A stretch of 36,660 nt of DNA, taken from assembly GCA_903862845.1 (NCBI GenBank), contig CAIOZS010000319.1:1-36660 (forward strand), read 5' to 3'. This DNA comes from an uncultured Thermoleophilia bacterium (GTDB lineage Bacteria > Actinomycetota > Thermoleophilia > UBA2241). Both the position numbers and the translations under genes were made by a program. Below the pieces are notes generated by a model, which worked only from the letters and a program-made list of their open reading frames with translations, was not told the origin of the DNA and did no database searches. This document shows positions 12,075 to 30,100 of the stretch, piece by piece; the first letter of the stretch is position 1, and the number at the start of each line of letters is the position of its first letter.

Positions 12075-13157
12075 TCAGCCCGCCGGCAGACCGGCGAGCG
12101 CGCCGGCGGCCATGGCGGCGATCAGACCCAGAAGCTCGGCCTGACCTTCGCCGGCGGCGCGGCCCAACGTGAGGGTGAGCGCGAGCAGGTTCGCGTCGCA
12201 GGGCGCCGTCGAGACGATCACGTGGGCGGTGTCGGTCTGCGTAGTACCGCCCTTGCCGCTGCCGCTCGGCGAACCGGTAGCGCCGGCGGTGGCACCGTTG
12301 TAGCTGGCTACGCAGGACATCGCCGCGAGCGCCTGCGCGGCCAGGTCGGCCGCCGCCTGGAGCACGCCGCTCCGCGAAACCTGATTCTGCAGGGCGGCGT
12401 GCCCGGCGGCGATCTTCTGGATCGCGTGGCGCAGGGCGAGCACGTCCTGGTCGCTGCGCTTGAGCTGCGCGAACACCTTGGCGTTGTGCATGGCCACGGC
12501 GGCTTGTCCGGCGACCGCGTTGGCGAGGCGCATCTCCTGGCGGCTGAAGCGCCGCTCCCGCTGGTGGTCGAGCACCTCGAGCAGTCCGATGGCCTGGCCC
12601 TGGTGGATCATCGGCAGGATCAGCAGGCACTTGTCGCCGTCGCGGCGCATGATCGCGACCTCGGCCGCGTCCGCGCGAGGGTCGCTGACGTTGACGGTGG
12701 TGGTCTCGTGGTCCTCGATGGCCTTGCGGGCCATGGGGAACTGGCTCAGCGTGTAGGTCATGGTGTCGACCTGACGGTTGCCCAGATTGTCGTATTCCGC
12801 CTGCACGGCGACAGTGCGGGTCGCCGGGTCGTACTCGGAGATCACGCACACGTGGGCGTCGAGCAGGGTGGTCATCTGTTTGGCGACCTCGCGGAGGAGC
12901 TCGGCGACCTCGAGACGGCTGGAGACGACGATGGCGGTCTCTACCAGCGTCTCGAGCTCGCGTTCGCGGGCGAGGCGGGCGGCGAGATGGTTGCTCCCGC
13001 CGATGAGATGGGTGAGCTCGTCGATGTCTTCTTGCCTGATGCGCCGGTGCCCGCCGGCGGTGCGCGTGCAGGGCAGGAAACCGGAGGCCGTCCAGCGGCG
13101 GATCGTGTGCGGCGACACGCCCAGGCGGCGGGCGGCCAACTGTACGCTGTAGTACAT
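12075..13157 (-). CDS. MerR-type HTH / GAF-domain transcriptional regulator, paralog 1
   Basis: 360 aa. The N-terminal 50 residues are a MerR-superfamily helix-turn-helix (SVQLAARRLGVSPHTIRRW, then TRTAGGHRRI). A helical linker leads into a GAF sensor domain at about residues 70-245, and a C-terminal Ala-rich domain of about 95 residues (containing SCVASYNG) looks like a second, degenerate GAF. The ligand is unknown. Its closest visible relative is the gene at 13997-15091, with the same domain order and the same promoter design. It is transcribed away from the cytosine deaminase gene, which may be a target. The ATG at 13157 was chosen because the -10 box places the transcript start exactly on it. 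Confidence 0.85.
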   Translation of the reverse strand: MYYSVQLAARRLGVSPHTIRRWTASGFLPCTRTAGGHRRIRQEDIDELTHLIGGSNHLAARLARERELETLVETAIVVSSRLEVAELLREVAKQMTTLLDAHVCVISEYDPATRTVAVQAEYDNLGNRQVDTMTYTLSQFPMARKAIEDHETTTVNVSDPRADAAEVAIMRRDGDKCLLILPMIHQGQAIGLLEVLDHQRERRFSRQEMRLANAVAGQAAVAMHNAKVFAQLKRSDQDVLALRHAIQKIAAGHAALQNQVSRSGVLQAAADLAAQALAAMSCVASYNGATAGATGSPSGSGKGGTTQTDTAHVIVSTAPCDANLLALTLTLGRAAGEGQAELLGLIAAMAAGALAGLPAG

Positions 13158-13163
13158 GCGCAA

Positions 13164-13996: not shown

Positions 13997-15091
13997 TCAG
14001 GCGGCGGACCCTTCGGGAACCGCCACGGCGGCGGTGGCCGCGGCGATGAGGTCGAGCAACTCCACCTGGCCCTCGCCGGGCGGCTCGCCGAGCGTGACGG
14101 CGAGCGTGAGGTCGGTGCGCCCCGACGGGTCGCGCGACACGACCAGACTGGCGCTGGCGCCGCGCTCGGCGTTGGTGGCGTCGGGGCGGGCGGCGAGTAG
14201 GCCGGCGCCGAAGGCGCCGGCGCTCTCGCCGCCCACGCTGGCCACGCACGAGATCGCGCCGAAGGCTTCGCAGACGGCGCCGGCTACGGCGGCAAGGAGG
14301 CCCGAGCCGCGCCCGGCGGCGCTCACCGCCGGCAGGCGCGCCGTGAGATCGGCGATCATCTCACGCAGGCTGGCCACGTCCTCGTCGCTGCGCCGCCGTG
14401 CGGCGAACAGCTTGGCGTTGTGAATGGCCACCGCCGCCTGCCCGGCGATGGCGCCGGCCAGGCGGCGCTCCTGACGCGAGTACTGGCGGGACCGCTTCTG
14501 ATCGACGACCTCGAGGATGCCGATGGTGCGGCCCTGCACGATGAGCGGAACCATGAGGAGGCTGCGGTCGCCCTCGCGGCGCAGCTCGGCGACCTCGGCG
14601 GGGTCGGCGTCGGGGTCTTCAACGTTGACGACCGCCGCCGTCTGCTCTTGCAGCACGCTGCGCGTCAGGGGGAAATCCCTGAGCTTGTAGGGGCTCGCGT
14701 CGGGCAGGCGCCGCCCGGCGTGGTCGTACTCGGCCAGCGTGACGAGCTCCTGGGCCTCGGCGTCGTACTCTGAGATGGCGCAGAAATGGCAGTCGAGCAG
14801 GCTGGTCATGCGCATCGCGATCTCGAGCAGGAGCTCGGTGAGGTCGATCTTGCCGGCGAGCGCGATGGAGGTGTTGATGAGCACGTCGACCTCGCGCTCC
14901 CGGGCGAGCTGGGCGGCGAGATGGTTGCTGTTGCCGATGGCCTTGGCGAGGTCGTCGATGTCGTGCTCGTCGATGCGCCGGTGGCCACCGGCGGTGCGCG
15001 TGCAGGGAAGGAAGCCGGTCGCGGTCCAGCGCCGGATCGTGACCGCCGACACACCGAGCCGCCGCGCGGCCTGCTGAACGCTCAGAAGCAT
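13997..15091 (-). CDS. MerR-type HTH / GAF-domain transcriptional regulator, paralog 2
   Basis: 364 aa with the same three-part layout as the regulator at 12075-13157: helix-turn-helix (SVQQAARRLGVSAVTIRRW, then TRTAGGHRRI), GAF domain at about residues 70-245, and a conserved C-terminal domain with SCVASVGG and a GEGQVELLDLI motif near the end. The recognition helices of the two differ by few residues, so they may share binding sites. It is convergent with the cytosine deaminase gene and divergent from the saccharopine-dehydrogenase-family gene at 15290, which makes it a candidate regulator of that enzyme and the transporters beyond. The ligand of the GAF domain is unknown. Confidence 0.85.
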   Translation of the reverse strand: MLLSVQQAARRLGVSAVTIRRWTATGFLPCTRTAGGHRRIDEHDIDDLAKAIGNSNHLAAQLAREREVDVLINTSIALAGKIDLTELLLEIAMRMTSLLDCHFCAISEYDAEAQELVTLAEYDHAGRRLPDASPYKLRDFPLTRSVLQEQTAAVVNVEDPDADPAEVAELRREGDRSLLMVPLIVQGRTIGILEVVDQKRSRQYSRQERRLAGAIAGQAAVAIHNAKLFAARRRSDEDVASLREMIADLTARLPAVSAAGRGSGLLAAVAGAVCEAFGAISCVASVGGESAGAFGAGLLAARPDATNAERGASASLVVSRDPSGRTDLTLAVTLGEPPGEGQVELLDLIAAATAAVAVPEGSAA

Positions 15092-15289: not shown

Positions 15290-16477
15290 ATGCGGGTCCT
15301 TCAACTTGGCGTTGGTGCCGTGGGCGAGGTGAACGCGCGGGTCAGCGCCCTGGAGCCGGCGGTCGAGACGGTCGTCCTCGCGGACATCGACGAGAGCCGA
15401 CTGCGCGAGGTGGCCGCGAAGCTGCCGCCGGGCAAGGCCGAGAGCCTTGTGCTGGACGCCTCCGACCACGCGGCCCTCGTGAGGGCCGCGAAGGGCGTCG
15501 ACTTCGTGCTCAACGCCTTGGCCACGGCCTGGGACATCCCGGTGATGGAGGCCTGCCTCGAGGCTGGGCGGCATTATCTCGACATGGGCACCGGCGGGCC
15601 CCGCGAGATCACGGGCACCGCCGACCTCGACGAGCAGCTCGCCCTCGACGACGAGTTCAAGAAGCGCGGCTTGGCCGGCCTCGTGTCGTTCGGCATCGAC
15701 CCGGGCGTCAGCGACATGTTCGCGCGCGCTTTGCACGACGAGCTCGACACCGTTGAGTCGCTCACGGTGCTGGACGGTGACAACGCCACCGTGGACGGCT
15801 ACGAGCTGGCCTGCTCGTTCAACGTGGAGACGATGATCGAGGAGTGCCTGCTGCCGCCGTACGTCTTCAAGGACGGCAGGGAGGTGCGCAACGAGGCCCT
15901 GTCGGTCTTCAGGGAGTTCGAGTTCCCGGCGCCGGTCGGCAAGCTCACGCTGTGCAACGTCGACCACGAAGAGGCACAGCTCATGCCGATGTACCTCAAG
16001 GGAAAGGGGCTCAGGAACGCGATCTTCTTCATCGGCCTCGACGAGCGCTTCGCCCAGGCACTCAAGGTCTTCAGGACGCTGGGCCTCAACCAGCGTGAGC
16101 CTGTGGAGTTCCGCGGGGCCATGATCTCGCCAATCCAGTTCGTGGCCTCACGTTTTCCCCGACCGGCCGACCTCGCCGGCAAGCTTCACGGTGCCGTCTG
16201 CGTGGGCACGCTCTGCGAAGGCACCATCGGCGGCGAGCCCGTGCGCCGCTTCCGCTATCAGACCACCTCGCACGACGAATCGTGGCAGAGGTGGGGAGTG
16301 CAGGGCACGGCCTTCCAGACCGGCGCCTCCGCGGCCTGTGCCGTCACCCAGTTCGCGCGCGGCGAGATCGCGCGGCGCGGGGTGTTCCCGGCTGAGGTGC
16401 TCGACCCCGCGGCCTACATGGCCGAGATGGAAAAGGTGGGCCTCGCGGTCGGGGTCGTGGACCTGCCGCCTGCCTGA
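15290..16477 (+). CDS. Saccharopine dehydrogenase family oxidoreductase (1)
   Basis: 395 aa, with a GGTGGGAG ribosome-binding site. The N-terminal Rossmann fold shows G7-x-G9-x-x-G12 and an acidic end of strand 2 (LADID), which suggests NAD(H). The middle and C-terminal parts fit the saccharopine dehydrogenase/lysine 6-dehydrogenase group (GIDPGVSDMFA, then RGAMISP). The substrate is probably an amino acid or its imine. A paralog lies at 26267. The promoter may be TGTAAA-17-GATACT (15180-15208). It is followed by a strong hairpin, then two MFS genes on the same strand; function in one pathway with them is suggested by position only. Confidence 0.82.
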   Translation: MRVLQLGVGAVGEVNARVSALEPAVETVVLADIDESRLREVAAKLPPGKAESLVLDASDHAALVRAAKGVDFVLNALATAWDIPVMEACLEAGRHYLDMGTGGPREITGTADLDEQLALDDEFKKRGLAGLVSFGIDPGVSDMFARALHDELDTVESLTVLDGDNATVDGYELACSFNVETMIEECLLPPYVFKDGREVRNEALSVFREFEFPAPVGKLTLCNVDHEEAQLMPMYLKGKGLRNAIFFIGLDERFAQALKVFRTLGLNQREPVEFRGAMISPIQFVASRFPRPADLAGKLHGAVCVGTLCEGTIGGEPVRRFRYQTTSHDESWQRWGVQGTAFQTGASAACAVTQFARGEIARRGVFPAEVLDPAAYMAEMEKVGLAVGVVDLPPA

Positions 16478-26266: not shown

Positions 26267-27457
26267 ATGAGGATCGCCGTCATCGGCGCCGGCGCCATGG
26301 GTCGCTGGGCTGTCAAAGAGCTTGCCATCAGCCCCGAGGTCGACGAGATCGTCGTCGGCGACTTCGACGAGGAGCAGGCGCGCGCCGTGGCCGCCACCTA
26401 CGGCGGCGACAGGGCCAAGGCGGTCTTCGTCGACGCCCGCGACGCGGAGAGCGTCAAGAAGGCCATCGCCGGCTGCGACGCCATGGTCAACGCTACGCAG
26501 CACTTCTGGAACATCACCGTGATGCACGCCGCGGCGGCCGCCAGGGTGCACTACACCGACATGGGCGGCCTCTTTCACGTGACCAAGCAGCAGGTGGAGC
26601 TGGCCGGCGAGTTCGAGAAGGCCGGCGTCACCGCCGTGATCGCCATGGGCGGCGCCCCCGGCGTCACCAACATCCTCGCCAAGTACGGTGCCGAGCGGCT
26701 GGACGTGGTGGAAGAGGCGCACGCCCTGTGCGGCAACGTCGACGACACCGACTGGAGCGGCTACGACGGCTGGGCCCCCCCGTATTCTCTCGAGACCCTG
26801 TGCGACGAGTTCAGCGTCACGGCGCCGGAGCTCGTGGGTGGCCACTGGAACATGGACATCAGCGGAGGTGAGGGGCCGGAGGACATCGACTTCGGTGAGC
26901 CGGCCGGCATCCTCGAGGCGCACTACACGATCCACTCCGAGCCGTTCACCTTCTGGCACACGTGGAAGGATCAGGGGCTCAGGAGCGCGACCTTCAAGCT
27001 GTCGCTGCCCGCCGAGTTTACGCAACAGATGCGCTTTCTGAATACGATCGGCATGACGCGCACCGACGAGGTCGAGGTGAGGGGTGGCCACGTGCGGCCG
27101 CGCGACGTGCTTCTCAAGGTCGTCGGCGAGATCGCGCGGCCCGCCGGCGTCGTGCTCGACGACGTCGACTACCTGCTCGGGGTGGTGCGTGGCCTCAAAG
27201 ACGGGCGCCGGGTGGAGTGGCGCGTGCGCGCCACCGTCCCGGCCTGCAAGGAGCACGGCGCCGGCGGCGGCGACGTCGACACCGGCATCCCGCCGGCGAT
27301 CGTCGCCAAGATGATGGCCAGCGGCGAGATCGCCGGCCCCGGAGTGTTCGTGCCCGAGCAGATCGTGCCCTGCGAGCGGTTCTTTGCCGAGCTCGCGCGC
27401 TGGGGCGTCACCGTCGACGCGCAGATGCGTGAGATCCTGGCGGCGCCGGAGGTCTGA
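26267..27457 (+). CDS. Saccharopine dehydrogenase family oxidoreductase (2)
   Basis: 396 aa, with a strong AGGAGGA ribosome-binding site. The Rossmann loop is G7-x-G9-x-x-G12, with an acidic strand-2 end (GDFD) favouring NAD(H). GGAPGVTNILA and the RGGHVRP segment correspond to GIDPGVSDMFA and RGAMISP of the enzyme at 15290, so the two are paralogs, probably both in the lysine 6-dehydrogenase-like group. It is divergent from the M20 peptidase / ADP-ribosylglycohydrolase operon, and amino-acid catabolism would unite it with the peptidase, though this is only context. The 120-base gap contains a GGCTCA direct repeat but no clear promoter for this gene. Confidence 0.83.
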   Translation: MRIAVIGAGAMGRWAVKELAISPEVDEIVVGDFDEEQARAVAATYGGDRAKAVFVDARDAESVKKAIAGCDAMVNATQHFWNITVMHAAAAARVHYTDMGGLFHVTKQQVELAGEFEKAGVTAVIAMGGAPGVTNILAKYGAERLDVVEEAHALCGNVDDTDWSGYDGWAPPYSLETLCDEFSVTAPELVGGHWNMDISGGEGPEDIDFGEPAGILEAHYTIHSEPFTFWHTWKDQGLRSATFKLSLPAEFTQQMRFLNTIGMTRTDEVEVRGGHVRPRDVLLKVVGEIARPAGVVLDDVDYLLGVVRGLKDGRRVEWRVRATVPACKEHGAGGGDVDTGIPPAIVAKMMASGEIAGPGVFVPEQIVPCERFFAELARWGVTVDAQMREILAAPEV

Positions 27458-27557
27458 GCCTGGCCGGCGCTCGAGGGCCGAGCCGGGCGCGCGCCGCCCG
27501 GTGCTCCACCGGTCTGCGCGGCGCGCATCCAACGGCTTCGTCCCGCATGGCCGAGCC

Positions 27558-27573
27558 TATACTCCTGGAGTAT
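27558..27573 (+). promoter_or_regulatory. -10 box and palindrome upstream of the RiPP precursor gene
   Basis: TATACT (27558-27563) is a consensus-like -10 box. It overlaps the palindrome ATACTCC-T-GGAGTAT (27559-27573), perfect 7-bp arms around one base, which would also cover the predicted start near 27570. The -35 region is poor, so the promoter may need an activator or be under a repressor. The leader to the ATG would be about 78 bases. Confidence 0.5.
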
Positions 27574-27647
27574 GGATCCGGTCGGCGGCACTCGCGACGG
27601 CCGGCGAACCCGGATGCGGCGTCAAACGGAACGAAGGGAGATCGACG

Positions 27648-27896
27648 ATGTCGCAGGAGCAGGCCGCAGCATTCATCGAGAGAATGACGACGGATGAGGC
27701 GTTTCGCGCCCAGGTGATGGGGGTGGCGGACGAGACGGAACGGATGGAGCTCATCGGCGCCGAGGGATTCGACTGCAGCGCGGGCGAGATCAAAGCGGCG
27801 GCGGCCGAGCTCGCCGAGGGTGACCTCGAAGGCGTCGTCGGCGGCAACAGCTGGGGCAACAGCTGGGGTGAGAAGGGCTTGCTCTTGGACTTCTGA
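27648..27896 (+). CDS. RiPP precursor with Nif11-like leader and double-Gly cleavage site
   Basis: 82 aa, with an AGGGAG ribosome-binding site. Residues 1-64 fit the Nif11-like leader family: MSQEQAAAFIERM at the start, a helical acidic body, and an EGDLEGVVGG ending. The Gly65-Gly66 pair is the usual cut site of the peptidase-type ABC exporters. The predicted core (67-82) is NSWGNSWGEKGLLLDF: a repeated NSWG, then a hydrophobic end. It has no Cys and two Ser, so a lanthipeptide is unlikely; the Trp-Gly-Asn step resembles sites of cyclophane-forming radical SAM enzymes, none of which is in the window. A methyltransferase-like gene follows on the same strand. A bulged hairpin at 27911-27933 may terminate the transcript. 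Confidence 0.82.
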   Translation: MSQEQAAAFIERMTTDEAFRAQVMGVADETERMELIGAEGFDCSAGEIKAAAAELAEGDLEGVVGGNSWGNSWGEKGLLLDF

Positions 27897-28058
27897 GGCA
27901 GCGGCCGAGGCGCGGACGTCCCTGAGGACCGCGGACGGGAGGTCCGGCGCCGGCGTTGCCGCACGCGGGCCCCAGCGGCCTTCTCCATCCGCCCTGCGGG
28001 TTCTGGCCGGCTGCTCGAACGGGCGGCCCGGCGTACTTGTGTGCTCGTGAGAGGAGTC

Positions 28059-28154
28059 GTGCCGGCAGGTCTGCGGGTCGCCGGCGCCCGATTGGGCTGC
28101 GCCGCGGCCGCAGTGCGGGCTCACGGCGCCGGACTCGAAGGGATGGTCGCGTGA
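28059..28154 (+). CDS. Possible 31-aa leader peptide coupled to the methyltransferase-like gene
   Basis: A GTG at 28059 lies just after AGAGGAG, and the short frame ends in a TGA that overlaps the GTG start of the next gene as GTGA, the same coupling seen at sbcDC, the ABC operon and the RND operon. The product would be Ala/Gly/Arg-rich, with one Cys. It shows no recognisable family. The start may lie four codons earlier. Coupling and ribosome-binding site are the only support; chance cannot be excluded in sequence this GC-rich. Confidence 0.3.
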   Translation: MPAGLRVAGARLGCAAAAVRAHGAGLEGMVA

Positions 28155-28834
28155 GGGAACAGTACGACCGCCGGCGGGTGACCGACGACCTGACTCTGGT
28201 GCCTTTCAGCTTCAGCGGCTACAAAGGACTCGCCTTCCACCGTCTCCTGCTGGAGGACTCGGTGCGAACGGAGTCGTTCAGGCGAGCCATCGCCAAGGTC
28301 GTCAAAGAGGGAGATGTCGTCGTTGACCTCGGCGCGGGAACGGGCATCCTCTCGTACTTCGCCTGTCAGGCCGGCGCCGCGCGGGTCTACGCGATCGAGT
28401 CCGACAGCATCATCGAGGTCGCCAGACAGGTCGCTCGCCAGAACGGCATGGACGACAGGATCACGTTCATCAAAGAGAGCTCGTGGATGACGAACCTGCC
28501 GGAGCACGTCGATGTCGTCGTCTCGGAGGTGTGGCGCCAGGTGTTCTTCCCCATCGCGCGGGAAGTCGAGGTGGAGGCGGGCAGCGTGGTCGACGTGCGC
28601 CTGGTCCTGAGGCGCTCGGAGACCGACGTCTGCGGGTGCTTCGAGTGGGCTGTCGGCGTGCGAGACGGCGGCGAGCGGAGGACCATCGCGACGCAGTCCA
28701 CAAGGGCGAGCTATCCCTACGATATCGGCGAGCTCTGTGAGGGCATGACGTGCCGCCCCGATGTGGACGGGAGGACGAGAAACGCAGGCATCGAGAGACG
28801 CGAGCTCCTGAAATGGATCGTGACAAAGCTGTGA
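28151..28834 (+). CDS. PRMT-like class I SAM methyltransferase, apparently shortened by internal deletion
   Basis: 227 aa, starting at a GTG with AAGGGA upstream. Residues 20-127 follow protein arginine methyltransferase-like enzymes closely: motif I VVDLGAGTGILSYFA (57-71), the acidic Glu83 after strand 2, and VDVVVSE (120-126), whose Glu is the first of the double-E loop. Directly after it, at about residue 128, the chain resembles the far C-terminal part of longer relatives (QVFFPI, VEAGSVVDVRL, then W and TQST). The second Glu of the double-E loop and most of the middle are absent; I estimate more than 100 residues missing, from memory of the family. The frame stays open. It may modify the RiPP upstream, or be a relic. 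Confidence 0.75.
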   Translation: MREQYDRRRVTDDLTLVPFSFSGYKGLAFHRLLLEDSVRTESFRRAIAKVVKEGDVVVDLGAGTGILSYFACQAGAARVYAIESDSIIEVARQVARQNGMDDRITFIKESSWMTNLPEHVDVVVSEVWRQVFFPIAREVEVEAGSVVDVRLVLRRSETDVCGCFEWAVGVRDGGERRTIATQSTRASYPYDIGELCEGMTCRPDVDGRTRNAGIERRELLKWIVTKL

Positions 28835-28925
28835 GGCGCCTTCTGGCGCGGCGCTGCCAGGGCGGCAAGGCGCCGGAGGCCCGAGCCTGGCCGGCGCCGG
28901 CGCGCCGCGCTCGGCCAGCGCCGCA

Positions 28926-29858
28926 TCACAGGTCCAGCGCCGCCTGTGCCGGCCCGGTCTCCACGCCCAGCAGCTGCGCCATCCGCCGCGCGTTGCGCAT
29001 GCCCCAGTCCTCGTAGTTGTTGTTGAAGAGGACGTGCACTGCCTGCGTCTGCCGCGCCAGCTCGCGCACCTGCGGGACCCACTCGCGCAGCTCGTCGTCG
29101 CTGTAGAGGTACTTGAAGCGCTCCGACGCCACTCTGGTCTTCGCCTCCCAGGTGTCCGCGTTGCGCCCGTGCAGCCGCACGATCGCCAGAGGCGCGGTGG
29201 CGGCGACGGTCGCCGGCGTGCTCGAACGGAAGCCCTGCGGTTCGTCGACGCAGACGTAGGCGAGCCCGGCGTCCTCCAGAAGGCGGAGCGTACCGGCGGC
29301 GGCCTGCTGGTCCATCCAGCCGCCGCCGCGAAGCTCCACGGCGAGCGTCCAGCCGGGCAGTCGTCGCGGCAGCTCGCGCAGGTAGGCGGCGTTGGCCTCC
29401 GAGCGCACGAACCACGGCGGGAACTGGAAGAGAACGGCGCCGAGCTTGCCGGCGTCGGCCAGCGGCGACAGCGCGCGCCGGTGCAGCTCCCAGAGCTTCT
29501 CTACGGCGTCCGCAGCGACATCCTTGCGGTAGACGTTCTTCTTGGCGAGCGTTTCGGCGGGCAGAGCCTCGCGGAGCCACGCGGGGAGGCGCTCGACGCG
29601 CGCCGGGTGCCCCGTGAGCAGGGCGTAGGCTTTCACGTTGAAGACGAAGCCTGCGGGCGTGCGCGCCGCCCACAGCTCGCTATTGCGCGCGGACGGCGGC
29701 GCGTAGTAGGTGGCGTCGACCTCGACGATCGGGAACTGCTCGGCGTAGTACCTCAGTCGTGCTTCGGCGCTGGTGACGCCGCGCGGGTAGAAGCGCCCGC
29801 CGGCGATCAGCGTGGGGTCGGTCCACGAACAGCTCCCCACAAGGACGCGCGCGCTCAT
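28926..29858 (-). CDS. DUF72 (YecE-like) TIM-barrel protein
   Basis: 310 aa. The opening VLVGSCSWTDPTL, then FPIVEVDATYYAPP, FNVKAY, LGAVLFQFPPWF, VELRGGGW and the late NNNYEDWG are standard landmarks of the DUF72 family, which has a TIM-barrel fold and no established reaction. The ATG at 29858 is preceded by GGGAGG; an earlier in-frame start would run through the upstream promoter region. No membrane segment. It is a single gene whose stop faces the RiPP locus and whose start faces the tRNA region. Confidence 0.9.
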   Translation of the reverse strand: MSARVLVGSCSWTDPTLIAGGRFYPRGVTSAEARLRYYAEQFPIVEVDATYYAPPSARNSELWAARTPAGFVFNVKAYALLTGHPARVERLPAWLREALPAETLAKKNVYRKDVAADAVEKLWELHRRALSPLADAGKLGAVLFQFPPWFVRSEANAAYLRELPRRLPGWTLAVELRGGGWMDQQAAAGTLRLLEDAGLAYVCVDEPQGFRSSTPATVAATAPLAIVRLHGRNADTWEAKTRVASERFKYLYSDDELREWVPQVRELARQTQAVHVLFNNNYEDWGMRNARRMAQLLGVETGPAQAALDL

Positions 29859-29897
29859 GCGGGCCTCCCTCTCTTTCGCTTCACTGCGCAAGTAACG

Positions 29898-29926
29898 TTG
29901 TTCCACCGGCGCGCCGGCTCTATACT
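29898..29926 (+). promoter_or_regulatory. Strong promoter with a 12-bp palindrome in its spacer
   Basis: TTGTTC (29898-29903) and TATACT (29921-29926) are 17 bases apart on the plus strand. The spacer holds the perfect palindrome CCGGCGCGCCGG (29906-29917), a possible operator. No convincing coding sequence follows before the tRNA. Confidence 0.55.
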
Positions 29927-29932
29927 TGACAT

Positions 29933-30046
29933 GAGTGAAGATGAGTCGGCGCCATGGTCTCTGCAGGCCACAGCCTCGAGCACGTTGGGGCACCGAAGGG
30001 GGCGCCGCCGATGGGCGGGACCTGCGCAGCAGGTGACCGCCCATCG
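29933..30046 (+). ncRNA. Candidate small RNA ending in a long hairpin
   Basis: Transcription from the promoter at 29898-29926 would start near 29933. About 76 bases later a long stem forms: CGATGGGCGG (30009-30018) with CCGCCCATCG (30037-30046), then ACCTGC with GCAGGT inside, closing a GCA loop, 16 pairs with one small internal loop. The stretch lies between the DUF72 gene (opposite strand) and tRNA-Leu. A 57-codon frame beginning at 29931 has no ribosome-binding site and runs through the hairpin, so I prefer a non-coding transcript of about 115 bases. Read-through into the tRNA is possible. Confidence 0.4.
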
Positions 30047-30100
30047 TCATGAGCGGCGCCCGCGGGAGCGCAGCGCCTTGCTCGCCGGGCCGGCCCCGCG

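Follow-up and report, generated by a model that had tools for sequence, protein, structure and literature searches.

A dispersed Nif11-leader precursor with an unusual cysteine-free core and a clear insertion history in a prochlorosin-like genome of the Thermoleophilia

The prochlorosins and synechococsins, products of ProcA and SyncA precursors and promiscuous ProcM-type LanM enzymes, are the described peptides to which the gene reported here is best compared. Prochlorosin genes lie isolated or in tandem across genomes, and the motif CCG is the mark of the ProcM group (PMC10783134). Further points of comparison are the N11P (Nif11) precursors with NHLM export (Haft et al. 2010; PMC2887384) and the triceptides made by XncB, OscB and MscB, which carry a three-residue aromatic-x-N/D/S/R motif in an i/i+2 pattern (PMC11002830). 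For leader removal we applied the recognition rule of the C39 protease LahT, which takes in leader positions -4, -7 and -12 together with Gly-Gly (PMC6363468). The window, i.e. the whole stretch of 36,660 nucleotides that was analysed, is contig C319 of genome G000 of an uncultured Thermoleophilia bacterium (4.38 Mb, 352 contigs, 94% complete). It carries a dispersed Nif11 precursor whose core is unusual in having no Cys and whose insertion history is clear, in a genome that is prochlorosin-like (Table 1).

Table 1. Positions of the precursor gene, its parts and the surrounding features in the window.
Feature	Position	Strand	Evidence
Nif11-leader RiPP precursor ORF, 82 aa	27648..27896	+	Translation; TIGR03798 and PF07862 profile matches
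Leader, 66 aa, end LAEGDLEGVVGG	27648..27845	+	TIGR03798 62.7 bits; Val-4, Leu-7, Leu-12, GG
Core NSWGNSWGEKGLLLDF, 16 aa, no Cys	27846..27893	+	Translation
12-nt tandem duplication giving NSWG-NSWG	27846..27869	+	Sequence; shuffle comparison
Segment of ~1.4 kb (Nif11 gene and methyltransferase) without counterpart at the site in ten relatives	27471..28868		Locus comparison
Left direct-repeat copy, overlapping the end of the saccharopine-dehydrogenase-like gene	27442..27497	+	56 nt, 80% to right copy
Right direct-repeat copy	28869..28924	+	56 nt, 80% to left copy
Saccharopine-dehydrogenase-like gene, conserved left neighbour of the site	26267..27457	+	Profile search, locus comparison
DUF72 gene, conserved right neighbour of the site	28926..30050	-	Profile search, locus comparison
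PRMT/PrmA-like SAM methyltransferase, 227 aa, same insert	28151..28834	+	Profile searches, homologue comparison

The ORF at 27648-27896 is a real gene (translation MSQEQAAAFIERMTTDEAFRAQVMGVADETERMELIGAEGFDCSAGEIKAAAAELAEGDLEGVVGGNSWGNSWGEKGLLLDF, 82 aa), with a Shine-Dalgarno-like GGGAG a few bases 5' of its ATG. The leader matched TIGR03798 with 62.7 bits (E 2.8e-17, cut-off 32.3) and PF07862 with 42 bits (cut-off 23.8), in agreement with the original prediction of a Nif11 precursor with a double-Gly site. Against 12 paralogues from the same genome its dN/dS was 0.20-0.48, and the leader is therefore a selected coding sequence under purifying selection; the possibility that it aligns by low complexity only, which had been named as grounds for rejecting the prediction, is set aside by these values and by the TIGR03798 score. 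The gene is intact, with a conserved leader, and is set in an insert of ~1.4 kb that has no modifying cluster of its own.

Translation confirmed the 16-residue Cys-free core that had been predicted. The tandem NSWG noted there is also present, its two copies (AACAGCTGGGGC and AACAGCTGGGGT) being identical at 11 of 12 nt with one mismatch, and the repeat is far over chance (six overlapping positions vs 0.25 per window in triplet shuffles); a 12-nt duplication is, however, a product typical of replication slippage and is alone no evidence for repeat-directed chemistry. The tandem probably arose by slippage of 12 nt in an ancestral core GG-NSWGEKGLLLDF, which would resemble other cores of the genome with an early Trp past GG (GGSWFD, GGSWFC, GGGWCD). 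Back-translated patterns of the whole peptide gave no homologue when run over 84,980 genomes; there were none in phages, and Prosthecochloris plasmids gave a match to the leader only. Among 99 related genomes there was one weak match (G046), where reading of the sequence revealed no Nif11 ORF with a core. A scan with the NSWG-core pattern returned 26 genome and 5 viral matches with no RiPP precursors among them, and N-x-WGxxWG past GG was found in no other Nif11 precursor of the 84,980 genomes or IMG/VR. The original prediction had counted a lack of homologues with a conserved core against itself, and on this point these searches go against it: they gave no whole-peptide homologue that would show selection on the core.

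The history of the locus was revealed by the comparison of eleven loci from ten relatives, belonging to the same genus (G001-G006, with G006 represented twice) or the same family (G009, G010, G013 and G014). In all of them the saccharopine-dehydrogenase-like and DUF72 genes bracket the site, and in none is the Nif11 gene or the methyltransferase present. The distance between the flanking genes is 33-58 bp at six loci of five same-genus genomes (G001, G002, G003, G004 and both loci of G006) and 186-225 bp in G013 and G014, as compared with 1469 bp in the window, where the Nif11 gene and methyltransferase lie between them; given the short spacing in the five same-genus genomes, these two genes therefore sit in an insert of ~1.4 kb. 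Unrelated sequences of 0.74-1.6 kb, which in G005 and G010 include response-regulator-like ORFs, occupy the site in G005, G009 and G010 (L149, L151 and L153), so that the site (27458-28925) looks variable within the family. The two direct-repeat copies (E 3e-11) agree at 27 of their first 29 positions, and same-genus relatives have one repeat copy, which aligns to both copies of the window. It should be noted that at least a tenth of random pairs of 1.5 kb flanks from this genome exceed 52 bits, owing to repeated genes, and that the repeat counts only because its copies sit exactly on the edges of the insertion. No recombinase was found at the insert. Comparable flanking repeats at other isolated Nif11 genes were absent at C4, C331 and C166 and weak at C77, a locus that is not conserved in relatives. 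On C324 (L018), a 174-nt direct repeat (69%; 1-171 and 610-783) lies either side of a Nif11 gene with the core GGSGCGTTHEGEACTWVFCWSVL.

The inserted methyltransferase lacks ~100 residues that its homologues (321-404 aa) have, most of them lying after the SAM-binding half and ahead of the C-terminal part, and from this comparison the enzyme may be decayed. We consider it doubtful that the inserted ~1.4 kb is a short cassette, mobile or brought in by recombination, of a precursor and a tailoring methyltransferase, which on arrival duplicated ~29-56 bp of the site and whose Cys-free NSWG core yields a non-lanthionine product through promiscuous enzymes acting in trans; if true, such a cassette would show how prochlorosin-like precursors scatter away from their enzymes. 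As for other genes of the window, 15290-16477 and 26267-27457 are saccharopine-dehydrogenase-like paralogues, the former matching carboxynorspermidine synthase with 149.5 bits (under the cut-off of 800), and 12075-13163 and 13997-15091 are neighbouring paralogues, the N-termini of which (LGVSxxTIRRWTAxGFLPCTRTAGGHRRI) look, by eye, like MerR-type DNA-binding regions.

A profile search of the whole genome revealed 24 Nif11 leaders over the TIGR03798 cut-off, several of them on contigs without a modifying enzyme nearby. C319 itself gave zero matches to radical SAM, LanM or YcaO proteins, as the original prediction had stated; its proposal that the enzymes may be encoded elsewhere was borne out in that a LanM, SPASM radical SAM enzymes, a YcaO and an NHLM peptidase exporter were all detected on other contigs. 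The LanM, on C168, scored 618 bits against TIGR03897 and has the zinc motif HLCCG, its 5' end being lost at the contig edge; behind it come a Nif11 gene, a gene for a ScmD-like protein and the radical SAMs ScmE and ScmF. This run on C168 (L014), in which ScmF is cut, has the form of a SynChlorMet-type cassette that adjoins a lanthipeptide synthetase. On C341, C227 and C224, Nif11 genes are adjoined by three SPASM radical SAMs, paralogues of one another, and the cores of these Nif11 genes all contain Cys; the enzymes are nearest to TIGR04463, Clo7bot and CefB, under every equivalog cut-off. C56 has two further SPASM radical SAMs and, together with them, six Nif11-like precursors (L052:10319-14661), five of which stand in tandem, GGWCSSPGGFGRPNTEGEFPG being one of the cores; both enzymes are under all NCBIfam equivalog cut-offs. 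The single YcaO is on C109. Elsewhere, on C284 (L017:3060-5796), a Nif11-like gene with the Cys-free end GIVFEHAGSEGFLKYWGDAPGKLI adjoins a radical SAM protein of ~700 aa, whose long N-terminal region is possibly cobalamin-binding. The NHLM exporter on C216 is complete, with 1031.6 bits for TIGR03796, 885.9 for TIGR03797 and 216.8 for TIGR03794 (all above cut-offs) and a C39 domain above the Pfam cut-off. Nif11 leaders are rare in the class, being found in 2 of 399 genomes at E<=1e-6 (the window's own genome listed besides or among those 2); one of these is the same-genus G004, where L118 holds a single different Nif11-like gene with the end LEGVVAAGTSFENFNFTLN.

The layout of the genome, in which conserved leaders and hypervariable cores would be served by shared trans-acting enzymes and one exporter, points to a prochlorosin-like arrangement. 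The window leader has Leu-12, Leu-7, Val-4, Gly-2 and Gly-1 (VVGG end) and fits the LahT C39 rule (PMC6363468), and a matching peptidase exporter is provided in the genome by the NHLM system on C216. As the C39 recognition residues are kept and the C216 exporter has a C39 domain, cleavage past Gly-Gly and export of the 16-mer would be the best-supported steps of the proposed pathway, and the product is probably a small peptide trimmed at the Gly-Gly site and exported. As to the enzyme that would read the leader in trans, the ProcM-like LanM on C168 is the most likely candidate, because in its length class the window leader belongs with leaders that are LanM-adjacent or isolated: the stretch that separates FDC from the cleavage site has 26 residues in the window leader, C331, C4 and the LanM-adjacent C168, 28 in C345, and 25 in C77 and in all six radical-SAM-linked leaders (C341, C227), than which the window leader is one residue longer. 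The chance of finding zero radical-SAM-linked members among the five longer of twelve leaders is 6/792 (~0.008), a figure to be read with the reservation that paralogues are not independent. Nine of ten inner branches of the leader tree are open, and the assignment to LanM therefore rests on a length difference of one residue between related paralogues. Without being proof, this difference speaks more for the LanM, or for no enzyme at all, than for the radical SAMs.

We thus lean towards a dispersed prochlorosin-like precursor that would be served by shared enzymes in trans, most likely the LanM, with NHLM export of the 16-mer, a reading to which we give somewhat better than even chances. The genome has both a ProcM-like CCG LanM and dispersed Nif11 precursors, and the core NSWGNSWGEKGLLLDF lacks the Cys that, with Ser/Thr, would be expected of a prochlorosin. 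Without Cys the defining lanthionine cannot form, as had been foreseen; the LanM could do no more than dehydrate one Ser or both, and the core may stay unmodified. Other points against this reading are that the contig carries no modifying enzyme, that the nearest leader to that of the window (C77, 66%) belongs to the other length class and that the co-inserted methyltransferase looks shortened, with decay possible. We found no evidence for the earlier suggestion that the product class could be new. Trp-centred cyclophane chemistry, likewise suggested, would require a SPASM radical SAM (C341, C227, C224 or the C56 pair) to act in trans and form a Trp-centred crosslink, for instance a three-residue cyclophane across W-G-N, and we consider this unlikely. 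Nif11 leaders do adjoin SPASM radical SAMs in this genome, several linked cores also have Trp soon past GG (GGGWCDQ, GGSWFC), and W3-G4-N5 of the core has the i/i+2 pattern of triceptides (PMC11002830), but this motif occurs once, the second Trp (W-G-E) having no Asn at i+2, and there is no cyclophane-forming radical SAM next to the precursor or anywhere on C319. Furthermore, the best-scoring profiles of the C341, C227 and C224 enzymes are not triceptide families, their adjoining cores have Cys and the leaders linked to those on C341 and C227 are of the shorter class. A radical SAM as first-choice partner was set aside on this length class and on the Cys-bearing neighbour cores; Trp-cyclophane chemistry is possible, and beyond one W-x-N nothing specific speaks for it.

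Alternatively, the precursor may be an orphan relic, which arrived with a gene fragment and has no working partner, a drifting core and no mature product; we rate this as a minor but real possibility. The adjoining methyltransferase, some 100 residues shorter than its homologues, would suit such a relic, as would the absence of Cys from the core, the young 12-nt slippage, the broken Nif11 copies elsewhere in the genome (C341:1639-1850 and C227:7-129) and the absence of a sigma-70-type promoter match in 27440-28930, although the promoters of this organism may be of a different type. Against it stand the intact ORF with its Shine-Dalgarno-like site, the purifying selection on the leader and the retention of all C39 recognition positions. 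A further reading takes the core to be captured from, or convergent with, the loop around the active-site Asn in papain-family (C1A) peptidases; the peptide would then work through this likeness, e.g. as a decoy or an inhibitory segment. The residues NSWGNSWGEKG agree with the pattern NSWGxxWGExG; a phmmer search of the PDB gave 65 matches at E<=10, all papain-family among the 60 listed (best 0.11); and a Pfam scan of the core region returned PF00112 only, with nothing for ten other cores of the genome, which has five PF00112 peptidases, three of them encoding NSWG by the same AACAGCTGGGGC codons. Yet the PF00112 score of 13.9 bits is below the cut-off of 20.7, and its E of 0.059 applies to one core, about one such match being expected by chance over the some twenty cores of the genome; moreover, DNA identity to the peptidase genes of the genome ends at 16 nt, and half of the motif is the 12-nt duplication. 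A papain-derived core is thus highly improbable, and the resemblance is treated as a coincidence unless binding is shown.

The gene belongs to a prochlorosin-like layout (many Nif11 precursors, a CCG LanM, an NHLM exporter and several SPASM radical SAMs beside related leaders) in a class otherwise nearly without Nif11 leaders, and the insert, at a site that is empty in sister species, illustrates clearly the arrival of an isolated precursor. That this precursor is Cys-free asks whether promiscuous LanM or radical SAM enzymes yield non-lanthionine products. In comparison with papain-family peptidases, the core has the NSWGxxWGExG spacing of the region of the active-site Asn, but is 16 residues long, has no catalytic Cys/His and is under the Pfam cut-off. 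With triceptides it shares one aromatic-x-Asn motif; unlike them, it has no adjoining radical SAM and a single W-x-N, and the Nif11-linked radical SAMs of the genome are nearer to other families. The TIGR03798 leader, the paralogous expansion and the TIGR03794/03796/03797 exporter are those of the N11P systems (PMC2887384), whereas the window gene is isolated from maturase and exporter. Finally, prochlorosins and synechococsins have the same Nif11 leader ending in DLExxxGG with a double-Gly site, the same hypervariable core, genome-scattered precursor genes and one CCG-type LanM; they differ in that the window core has no Cys and forms no lanthionine, and in that SPASM radical SAMs share the leader family here.
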